A stretch of DNA of 51,788 nucleotides from positions 1-51,788 of the forward strand of contig JAFQXV010000006.1 of NCBI GenBank assembly GCA_017406775.1. Reading direction: 5' to 3'. The notes beneath the pieces are model-generated. The model made no database searches, was not told the origin of the DNA, and was given only the letters and a program-made list of their open reading frames with translations. How positions within the stretch are numbered: the first letter of the stretch is position 1; each line of letters opens with the position of its first letter. The DNA is from Candidatus Saccharimonadota bacterium. Its GTDB lineage: Bacteria; Patescibacteriota; Saccharimonadia; Saccharimonadales; Saccharimonadaceae. Below are positions 48,997 to 51,788 of the stretch, one piece after another. The translations under genes were made by a program, and so were the position numbers.

Positions 48997-49419
48997 ATGC
49001 ACGCAGCCAAACAAGAACAAAACCAAAGCCAAATCTATAAATTATATTTCAAAACCAAACAACTCGCCAAACTCCTAGAAGAAGATAATAACAGCAAGCT
49101 AATCCTCTTTCCTTCAGCCAGTGGCGAAAAAGACGAGTGGCTCAAAATGGGTGGAAGTTCAGCTCTTTTTTACAAATACCTCATCGCCCCAAGACTAAAC
49201 AAAAAATCTCCCACCATCCGCCCAGACACGGACTTATCTCACCGTTTCAAAGACGGCATTATTTCCATCCACTGGAAAAATCTTTTCCTAAAAAATCTAA
49301 CTAAGATAGGTCTACCCCCCCCACGAAGAAAATGGCTTGCTGATCGTGGAACTCAACCACAAATTTACTCAAGCAGAAATCAAAAAACTAAAATCTCGCG
49401 AAAAAGAAAAACATGCTGA
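48997..49419 (+). CDS. DGR accessory protein, N-terminal frame (frameshifted from Avd)
   Basis: 140 aa as read; leaderless (TATAAT 48985-48990, 6 nt before ATG). Residues 1-105 read as a folded domain; after the C8 tract at 49315-49322 this frame turns into Arg/Lys-rich nonsense, while the next frame continues PPHEENGLLIVELNHKF into the Avd part. So one protein of about 264 aa is probably intended. I do not recognise the N-terminal domain (DEWLKMGGSSALFYKYLIAP, FKDGIISIHWKNL). Confidence 0.6.
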   Translation: MHAAKQEQNQSQIYKLYFKTKQLAKLLEEDNNSKLILFPSASGEKDEWLKMGGSSALFYKYLIAPRLNKKSPTIRPDTDLSHRFKDGIISIHWKNLFLKNLTKIGLPPPRRKWLADRGTQPQIYSSRNQKTKISRKRKTC

Positions 49420-49789
49420 GATTAACCAAATTTTAAAACCTAAAAATTCCATCCCCGAACTCTACCATATACTGCTTGTTCTCGCTAAGTCCCTCCCGCC
49501 TAAAGTAGCTAAATTAAAAGAACCCTACCGTAATGATTTCGGCAGTCAAATTAATCATACCGTCTGCGAATTATTTATTACCTACACAGATTATGTAGAC
49601 AAAAACATTACATCTCTCTCCGCTAAAAGTTCGTTCCATCGCTCGGTTAACAAACTAAACGCTCTCCTCATTATCTTAAACGAAAACAAACTTCTAGATT
49701 ACTCTACAATCGGCCGAGTCGGCCGTACTCTCCTAGATCTCCGCGAAACCATAGAAAGAACAATTAAAGATGCAAACGATCCTAAATAA
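49337..49789 (+). CDS. avd: Avd-like DGR accessory protein
   Basis: 150 aa as read from ATG 49337. Residues about 35-145 form a four-helix bundle pattern (IPELYHILLVLAKSLPPKVAK, INHTVCELFITYTDYV, SFHRSVNKLNALLIILNENKLLD, IGRVGRTLLDLRETIERTI) of the Avd/S23-like family. In Bordetella phage DGRs, Avd binds the reverse transcriptase and template RNA and is required for mutagenic cDNA synthesis. It ends 20 bp inside the RT gene. Probably the C-terminal half of the 48997 product, separated by a homopolymer frameshift. Confidence 0.75.
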   Translation: MLIVELNHKFTQAEIKKLKSREKEKHAEINQILKPKNSIPELYHILLVLAKSLPPKVAKLKEPYRNDFGSQINHTVCELFITYTDYVDKNITSLSAKSSFHRSVNKLNALLIILNENKLLDYSTIGRVGRTLLDLRETIERTIKDANDPK

Positions 49790-50969
49790 AATCAAAGGTT
49801 ATGTCCCGTCAAAGTACCGTACCATAGACTCCCAACTAGAGCTCGCTCTTTACTACTCCTATCTTGAGGCCAGAAAAGGCGGCAAAAGAAAAACCCACGA
49901 TGAACACGATTTTGAAATTCACGACTTTAAAAATCTGGAAGCTCTCAAAAACGACATCCTAAACAGAACTTACAAACCCTCCCGCTCCACCGCTCATATC
50001 ATAGAAAAGCCCGTCATTCGGGAGATCTTCGCCGCCCCCTTTTGCGACCGCGTTGTCCACCACTTAATCTTTAATTCTGTCTATGACTGGTGGGATAATC
50101 ATTTTATTTACGATTCATATTCCTGCCGCGTAAACAAGGGTACGCTTTTCGGCATTAGACGCCTAGATCATCACATCCGCGCAGTCTCCAGAAACTACGC
50201 TCGCCCAGCCTACGTTCTAAAACTAGACATAGAAGGCTATTTCATGTCACTTCCCCGTCTTAAGCTTTATCAACGCGCCATCTGGGGCCTAAACCAACAA
50301 TTTAAAAACCGCCGGCATGCTACCGAATACCAAATCCTTAAATTTCTCTGGTACCAGACCATCATGGATGATCCAATAAAAAGTGTTAAGAAAAAGGGCG
50401 ACCTCAGTCTCTGGGATAAGCTACCTAGCTCTAAGAGCCTTTTTACTCAACCACCTGGAAAAGGTATCGTCATCGGCAACCTTACGTCCCAGCTTCTCTC
50501 CAATATCTATCTAGACCAACTAGATCGTTTCATCACTTACGACCTCGGATACAAACACTACGGCCGCTATGTAGACGACTTCTACATTGTAGTAACGGAA
50601 GAAAAATTGCCACAACTAAAGCGCGATATCAGCGCCATCGCGGAATACCTTAAGTTAATAGACCTCACTCTCCACCCTAAAAAACGCCTACTAAAAAACT
50701 CTAAATACGGTATCCCCTTCCTTGGTGCTATTGTCTACCATAATCATATATTACCCGGTAAGCGTCTCTCTAAGAACATGAGCCAGACCTTCAAAGAAGT
50801 CATCACCGGTGAGCGAGATATCACCACGGTAACATCTTATCTCGGCCATATGAAGCATATTAATAGCTACAACCTAGTTAAAGAAGTCTTTACTACTATC
50901 GGCTGGGATTATCAAGACGACGATTGTTTCCGCACTTCCGCTCAAATCACCAAAAAAAGCCGCCGATGA
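49770..50969 (+). CDS. DGR reverse transcriptase
   Basis: 399 aa. RT fingers and palm: IEKPVIREIFAAPFCDRVVHHLIF, VLKLDIEGYFMSL, GIVIGNLTSQLLSNIYLDQLDRF and HYGRYVDDFYIV (YVDD catalytic site). The IGNLTSQ form of motif 4 is typical of DGR RTs, as opposed to the QG of retron and group II enzymes. Copies the template-repeat RNA with errors at adenines into the VR of a target gene. Overlaps avd; next to the TR on the opposite strand. Confidence 0.95.
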   Translation: MQTILNKIKGYVPSKYRTIDSQLELALYYSYLEARKGGKRKTHDEHDFEIHDFKNLEALKNDILNRTYKPSRSTAHIIEKPVIREIFAAPFCDRVVHHLIFNSVYDWWDNHFIYDSYSCRVNKGTLFGIRRLDHHIRAVSRNYARPAYVLKLDIEGYFMSLPRLKLYQRAIWGLNQQFKNRRHATEYQILKFLWYQTIMDDPIKSVKKKGDLSLWDKLPSSKSLFTQPPGKGIVIGNLTSQLLSNIYLDQLDRFITYDLGYKHYGRYVDDFYIVVTEEKLPQLKRDISAIAEYLKLIDLTLHPKKRLLKNSKYGIPFLGAIVYHNHILPGKRLSKNMSQTFKEVITGERDITTVTSYLGHMKHINSYNLVKEVFTTIGWDYQDDDCFRTSAQITKKSRR

Positions 50970-50980
50970 CGATGGCGGCT
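50951..50980 (-). terminator. Terminator of the template-repeat RNA
   Basis: On the minus strand AGCCGCC pairs with GGCGGCT around a 9-nt loop (50980-50958), followed by T7. It overlaps the RT stop codon (50967-50969). In the plus direction there is no T-tract. Confidence 0.8.
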
Positions 50981-51003
50981 AGCTTTACCCAGTGGGGAGC
51001 TGA

Positions 51004-51202
51004 ACAAAACAAACTACGAACCCGTAACCATACACCTAGCCATCCTACCGTTATACTTATTGTTGTTATTGGTACCAGGGTTAACATTACTACTGTTGAA
51101 GTTCATATTGTAGGCGTTGTTACTATTGTTGGCCGTAGAAGACCAATAGTTGCCGTTTGAACTACAATTGTTAATAGACGTACCATTAACGTTGCCAGAG
51201 TA
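51004..51202 (-). repeat. DGR template repeat (TR)
   Basis: 199 bp matching 51590-51788 with 20 mismatches, all at T on the plus strand, that is A in the template RNA (positions 51060-51193). It is very rich in AAC/AAT codons in the frame of the target, which lets mutation yield many amino acids. Changes: 9 A to T, 9 A to G, 2 A to C. Confidence 0.95.
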
Positions 51203-51438
51203 GACAAACACGATACTTCTAAACACCAAGAGGGCAGCTTGGCACACAAGGCGGATACGCTAAAAGAAGCTACTTCCAATCGTTATAGACCATAGCCTAT
51301 AAAAATCGCTCCAAGTGAACATATGCCTGACGAAGTCAGGTGAGCTTCTGAGCCCCACATTGGCAAAGGTGCTTGATTGGGCGATGATAGTAACCGAATC
51401 TATCATTCCTTTCCCATCAAGGCTTATTAGCCATAAAC

Positions 51439-51467
51439 ATTATAACACAGTACTAAATCTGTGGAAA
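51439..51467 (-). promoter_or_regulatory. Promoter of the template-repeat RNA
   Basis: TTTCCA (51462-51467), 17 bp, TATAAT (51439-51444). Two strong hairpins upstream (stems of 9 and 13 bp, about 51478-51538) separate it from the target gene. Confidence 0.65.
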
Positions 51468-51475
51468 AGCTTTTC

Positions 51476-51540
51476 CCTTGAGCCGGACAGTGCCGGCTCA
51501 AAGGTGGCAGGTGAAATCCTGTCGGGGATTTCACCTGCTA
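51476..51540. terminator. Two hairpins after the DGR target gene
   Basis: TTGAGCCGG/CCGGCTCAA (9 bp) and GCAGGTGAAATCC/GGATTTCACCTGC (13 bp, perfect) lie in tandem. On the minus strand they follow the target gene and probably end its transcript. Confidence 0.6.
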
Positions 51541-51547
51541 TCTAGTC

Positions 51548-51564
51548 TACTTGCTTCGCAAGTA
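51548..51564 (-). other. Hairpin 3' of the variable repeat
   Basis: Perfect 7-bp stem TACTTGC/GCAAGTA with a 3-nt GAA loop on the coding strand, 36 nt after the target stop. DGRs studied by Guo and Miller have a short hairpin or cruciform of this kind just 3' of the initiation-of-homing site, needed for efficient target recognition. Confidence 0.65.
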
Positions 51565-51589
51565 TCCTAGATGTTCCGTGGGGCTCTTC

Positions 51590-51788
51590 ACAAAACAAAC
51601 TACGAACCCGTAACCATACACCTAGCCATCCTACCGTTATACTTAAGGCTGCCATTGGTACCAGGGTTAACATTACTACCGCCGAAGAGCATATAGTAGG
51701 CGTAGTTACTACCGTAGGCCGTAGAAGACCAATAGTAGCCGTACGAACTACAATTGTAAATAGACGTACCATTAACGTAGCCAGAGTA
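51590..51788 (-). repeat. DGR variable repeat (VR)
   Basis: 199 visible bp of the target's C-terminal coding region and just beyond the stop, matching the TR except at 20 template adenines. Identity is unbroken at the 3' end (51590-51645), where homing initiates; beyond 51590 the downstream sequences resemble each other imperfectly (GTGGGG present in both). Confidence 0.95.
51600..51788 (-). CDS. DGR target protein, C-terminal part (runs off right edge)
   Basis: 62 visible residues ending at TAG 51600-51602. YWSSTA, then NVNPGT and KYNGRMARCMV, is the end of a FISUMP/DUF1566-type domain with formylglycine-enzyme/C-type-lectin fold, the fold used by known DGR targets. Against the TR translation 14 residues differ, 13 at Asn and one at Ser, mostly to Tyr, Gly, Leu and Ser. 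Probably a surface-displayed binding protein with a diversified ligand site; the N terminus, signal peptide and anchor are outside the window. Confidence 0.9.
   Translation of the reverse strand, partial: YSGYVNGTSIYNCSSYGYYWSSTAYGSNYAYYMLFGGSNVNPGTNGSLKYNGRMARCMVTGS

Follow-up and report, generated by a model that had tools for sequence, protein, structure and literature searches.

We propose, with a probability of roughly 0.66, that a DGR of Saccharibacteria is of a working type in which the strand that primes cDNA synthesis doubles as a guide, selecting the variable region (VR) over the template region (TR). The proposal is drawn from a segment in the 5' leader of the TR RNA that pairs imperfectly with the boundary of the TR (IMH*) and perfectly with that of the VR (IMH). 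Pairing between leader and VR boundary is strongly supported by sequence comparison among loci, and a guide function is suggested by it.

A DGR with an inverted template

The window, the whole stretch of 51,788 nt that was analysed, stops where contig C2 ends at base 51788, so that the target gene is cut within its VR. The source genome (720 kb in 14 contigs) has ruminant-gut 'Candidatus Saccharibacteria' as close kin and contains three DGR RTs, on contigs C2, C12 and C13. By its reverse transcriptase (RT), TR/VR signature, IMH and IMH* and probable type of target, the element on C2 is a genuine DGR of Saccharibacteria (Table 1). The RT, in which the YVDD and IGNLTSQ motifs reported by the first-pass annotation are present, found its best PDB sequence match in the BPP-1 DGR reverse transcriptase (8ub7; E 5.5e-21) and matched the PHROG reverse transcriptase at 1.2e-71.

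The same annotation had described TR/VR differences confined to template adenines, and this proved correct: over 199 bp (51004-51202 against 51590-51788, offset 586) each of the 20 mismatches is a T on the plus strand, that is, an A in the minus-strand template RNA, and the hypergeometric P for 20/20 differences on the 62 template-A sites of 199 is ~6e-12. Its count of recoded residues (14 of 62; 13 Asn and 1 Ser) was reproduced on recounting. The A-only stretch does not quite reach the functional boundary; IMH and IMH* lie outside the coordinates that the annotation had given and differ from each other, the VR carrying GAGCCCCAC and the TR the altered GCTCCCCAC. The RNA leader, its complementarity to the VR and the targets in trans, described below, had likewise escaped the annotation. 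Pooled over 47 loci of Saccharibacteria and other Patescibacteria, 1052 of 2739 template-A sites differ versus 34 of 7456 other sites, a figure that is no independent test, since the locus-finding scan favours A-type mismatches. A stem-loop 3' of the IMH was seen at the cis VR and is not obvious at the VR on contig C4; across loci, VR stem-loops were longer than TR stem-loops in 23 and shorter in 12, which is not decisive.

Table 1 Features of the DGR locus, with positions in the window
Feature	Position	Strand	Basis or remark
Accessory protein, N-terminal a/b domain (ORF 1 of split gene)	48997..49419	+	ORF
C8 tract, breaks accessory reading frame (+1)	49315..49322	+	
Accessory protein, Avd-like helical bundle (ORF 2, +1 frame)	49337..49789	+	ORF, ortholog fold
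DGR reverse transcriptase, 399 aa, YVDD, IGNLTSQ	49770..50969	+	Pfam RVT_1 2.5e-10
Terminator-like hairpin of TR RNA	50952..50979	-	Overlaps RT stop codon
IMH*, TR boundary, GCTCCCCAC	50992..51000	-	Two mismatches to guide, near guide's 3' end
Template region (TR)	51004..51208	-	Sequence comparison
Structured 5' leader of TR RNA, ~225 nt	51209..51432	-	Conserved in four orthologs
Helix 3' strand, AGCTTCT	51265..51271	-	Conserved helix following guide
Helix 5' strand, AGAAGCT	51343..51349	-	Directly after guide
Putative guide segment, GTGGGGCTC	51350..51358	-	9-nt perfect complement of VR boundary
Promoter-like site TTTCCA-17-TATAAT, extended -10	51439..51467	-	TATAATG invariant in four orthologs
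Stem-loop 3' of VR (TACTTGC-GAA-GCAAGTA)	51548..51564	-	
IMH, VR boundary, GAGCCCCAC	51578..51586	-	Same sequence in both trans VRs
Variable region (VR), 3' end of target gene	51590..51788	-	Gene cut by contig end

The TR RNA is antisense and convergent to the RT, and this holds for all 44 surveyed gut-clade loci, in which the TR lies -19 to +111 nt from the RT stop on the opposite strand. The RTs of these 44 loci form one side of a branch with a support of 97, corresponding to one change; in four environmental relatives and in Bacteroidales loci, the TR is on the RT strand. Most of the clade loci have inverted the TR alone and keep the target on the RT strand; in our window the RT occupies one strand and the TR, VR and target the other. 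The latter layout is that of the DiGReF group 4 'inverted' DGRs of Shewanella, Vibrio and Photobacterium (PMC3521204), and RT/TR inversion, known but rare, also occurs in cassette G5 (PMC6642488). Group 4 comprises three loci, whereas here a single clade accounts for 44. The Patescibacteria DGRs of clade 2 in PMC8144416 are likewise cellular, and the part of that article drawn on here makes no mention of a leader or guide in Patescibacteria DGRs.

The template RNA and its VR-complementary segment

Upstream of the TR, a promoter-like site precedes a structured leader, for which RNAalifold on four orthologs gave 48 consensus pairs, 15 of them with at least one compensated change; an Rfam search of the leader region returned no family. 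Terminators after the TR were found in only 8 of 44 loci and are thus not a general feature. In L058, L060, L066, L068 and L078, the TR 3' tail was observed to pair with the leader over 10-12 nt.

Within the leader, the VR boundary recurs in antisense: GTGGGGCTC matches the GAGCCCCAC of the VR perfectly, where the TR has GCTCCCCAC instead. Comparable segments of 7-15 nt complementary to the VR 3' boundary recur across loci, and the IMH* is usually mismatched to them, in most cases at a distance of 2-3 nt from the 3' end of the segment. Covariation was assessed by taking, for each locus, the longest exact complement between leader and VR boundary and permuting leaders among loci. Over 53 loci (columns -15..+12) the complement came to 8.13 nt against 6.16 nt after permutation (z 13.3, 0/5000), although the relatedness of the loci means that this and all other permutation z values overstate independence and gauge the specificity of pairing, not exact probabilities. 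Controls were null, both for the same sense (z -2.1) and for the TR 3' tail (z -0.3), where a VR-complementary segment of the BPP-1 type would lie; three loci with VR or TR sequence present in sense orientation in their leaders were excluded from the sense control, which they otherwise raise.

The guide hypothesis arose from part of the 53 loci, and in ten previously unused loci the signal was again obtained (z 4.2, 0/5000), spanning the boundary and absent from columns -25..0. Over columns -25..0 common to TR and VR in the first set, z was 6.7 for the VR and 1.1 for the TR. Per-locus sign tests of better pairing with the VR than with the TR were not significant, which we blame on the TR tail also pairing with the leader; these tests placed the boundary at the first non-A mismatch, and the column-restricted permutation test was relied on instead. 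Duplex energies favoured the VR over the TR in six examples. A clear guide by exact match is missing in about a quarter of loci (e.g. L058, L064 and L097), the guide does not discriminate VR from TR at own12, and the corresponding test in Bacteroidales DGRs was weak (z 1.4-2.3).

The helix that follows the guide (7-9 nt, paired with the leader end) also covaries (z 5.9). Beyond the TR end, at columns 0..+30, the TR pairs with the leader (z 9.5), which suggests a 5'-3' closing stem of the TR RNA.

Further targets and the accessory gene

A search of the genome with the C2 TR, a check that the first-pass annotation had recommended, yielded two more VRs, VR7 on contig C7 and VR4 on contig C4. A sites account for 18 of the 19 differences in VR7 and for 24 of the 25 in VR4, and the sole non-A difference is common to both. 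TR position 36 is T in the C2 TR and the cis VR and is C in VR7, in VR4 and in the TR of each of three orthologous loci, which places the rewriting of the cis VR after the mutation in the TR. By this marker, which lends independent backing to the earlier claim of recent retrohoming, VR7 and VR4 are shown to be older than the C-to-T change in the TR, the cis VR having been rewritten last. The evidence supports a DGR that looks recently active, present activity being more than a single assembly can demonstrate.

The cis VR of a sister genome, G052, shows 26 A changes and no non-A change, and the trans VRs have about 29 and 9, 20 and 9 (plus indels) and 29 and 27, respectively; we read these VRs as a series that runs from fresh copies to aged ones. 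Non-A changes number 9-30 in the other trans VRs versus 0-1 in cis VRs. All six trans targets examined (C7, C4, G052 C22, C29 and C13, and a relict on contig C10 of our genome) retain an IMH that matches the guide. VR7 and VR4 both have GAGCCCCAC, and the three aged VRs of G052 all keep GAGCCCTG, the complement of the G052 guide, despite 9-27 non-A changes in the body. The relict (C10:815-1038; L167), 72% identical, resembles a VR that was copied from the C13 TR and has since diverged, with 33 A and 30 non-A changes; it appears to be an aged target, and its boundary is still GCCTTTCC, in agreement with the guide of the C13 DGR.

The targets of the orthologs end in a FISUMP domain (Fib_succ_major, TIGR02145), and a role at the cell surface may be envisaged for the target, which is possibly C-type-lectin-like. 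Its Lcl_C match was weak, as were the structure search and the AlphaFold model of the target domain (pLDDT 59.5), which gave no significant match against the PDB. In L044 (158-2725, on C12 of our genome) the target protein has two FISUMP stretches, and the TR matches only the last. The first 139 bp of C7 and C4 are identical and extend upstream of the VR, so that these targets probably have a collapsed repeat as their 5' part. Contigs C2, C4 and C7 were all seen to end at VRs of one TR, and the assembly seems to have collapsed or lost the 5' portion of the target family.

The gene upstream of the RT is split at a C8 tract. An intact ortholog, L052, was modelled at a pLDDT of 94 as an a/b domain at the N-terminus followed by an Avd fold; its C-terminal half matched BPP-1 Avd (4dwl; TM(target) 0.75-0.79, probability 0.99-1.00) and 8ub7. 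Searches of the accessory protein against Pfam, NCBIfam, PHROGs and PADLOC gave nothing convincing, and Avd was recognised by fold search only. In G052, a second species, the accessory gene (L046) has C11 at the same site and is out of frame by the same offset; the gene has no poly-C tract in the intact relatives G006 and L053. The split may reflect phase variation, programmed +1 frameshifting or an assembly error. Phase-variable control of a DGR is a possibility, and a literature search on phase variation in DGRs returned no relevant paper. Because the frame is broken at the C8 tract, this copy of the DGR could now be switched off; the Avd half sits entirely in ORF 2 and so could still be made. 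By eye, an apparent N-terminal helix-turn-helix (XRE-like) domain is fused to the a/b-Avd accessory protein in L054, L056, L058, L059, L060, L061, L064 and L065.

Proposed target choice by the primer strand

BPP-1 (bRT, Avd, TR-Sp RNA, mtd) resembles the Saccharibacteria element in its DGR-type RT, Avd fold, A-specific TR/VR differences and IMH distinct from IMH*, and in both a VR-complementary segment is followed by a helix. In BPP-1 this segment, Sp 48-56 (AGGTGGTCA), complements VR 118-126 without a mismatch, and the TR has one three positions from the 3' end; the match between Sp and VR may already be described in the literature. The last base of the segment is A56, which we take to be the priming nucleotide; priming at A56 with a cDNA start at TR 117 was reportedly found by Naorem (2017) and Handa (2018). 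The motif GTGGTCA occupies a similar Sp position in most BPP-1-related phages, where the permutation test was uninformative, the IMH being nearly invariant and covariation consequently weak. The two systems differ in that the segment lies 3' of the TR, in the spacer, in BPP-1 and in a long 5' leader in Saccharibacteria, whose TR has its own promoter-like site and is antisense to the RT, and whose accessory protein has an N-terminal domain additional to Avd.

According to the reading we prefer, the TR would be transcribed from its own promoter as an RNA of ~480 nt, antisense and convergent to the RT and consisting of structured leader, TR and short tail; copying of the TR by the RT and the Avd-fold accessory protein would be error-prone at A. 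The 9-nt segment, at the foot of the conserved helix, would pair imperfectly with IMH*, and cDNA would be primed at the adjoining A, predicted by analogy with BPP-1 A56 to be 51349, the first A of AGAAGCT. The segment would also pair perfectly with the IMH, annealing to the VR coding strand beside the cDNA, such that guide, priming A and cDNA would present one continuous strand to the VR. In this manner, the guide would direct cDNA into the VR and not back into the TR, and would permit several trans targets.

An unlikely alternative, though one with some evidence in its favour, is that the segment is the cDNA primer strand on the TR only; VR boundaries would then match it because retrohoming copies or converts primer sequence into the VR, the segment playing no part in selecting the target. 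It would fit the ending of the BPP-1 segment at its presumed priming nucleotide, and every trans target examined has a VR boundary that equals the complement of the primer. However, a primer acting on the TR alone should match the TR best, and among the 43 loci whose run reaches 7 nt or more, 39 have the mismatch on the TR side, a biased count in that the segment was chosen for its VR match; the segment must, moreover, still meet the VR during integration. We consider it very improbable that this is a plain recently active DGR whose leader is an RT-binding part of the RNA and matches the VR by chance or shared ancestry: DGRs are common in CPR bacteria (PMC8144416), yet the strength of the leader-VR covariation, its null sense and tail controls and its replication in held-out loci all speak against chance. 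That the leader is an antisense regulator of target mRNA 3' ends, controlling expression of the variable protein with no role in retrohoming, agrees with the guide complementing the coding strand just past target stop codons, but is scarcely credible, as it leaves unexplained the recurrent TR mismatch, the helix after the guide and the fact that the segment coincides with the priming site of BPP-1.

Whether target choice by DGRs is RNA-guided as a general rule, through a short stretch of the template RNA that also serves as the cDNA primer strand, pairs with the IMH and is mismatched to IMH*, and that would lie 3' of the TR in BPP-1-like phages and 5' in Patescibacteria, we regard as evenly balanced. 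Priming at IMH* by an internal spacer adenine has been described, and even for the best studied DGR the way in which mutagenised cDNA finds the VR and integrates is said to be incompletely understood (PMC12875486). A guide that matches the target and not the template could explain how DGRs tell the two apart. Such a guide would be legible from sequence, testable by compensatory mutation and predictive of trans targets, here in a lineage of DGRs whose template RNA is rearranged and in a genome that holds three DGRs in only 720 kb.
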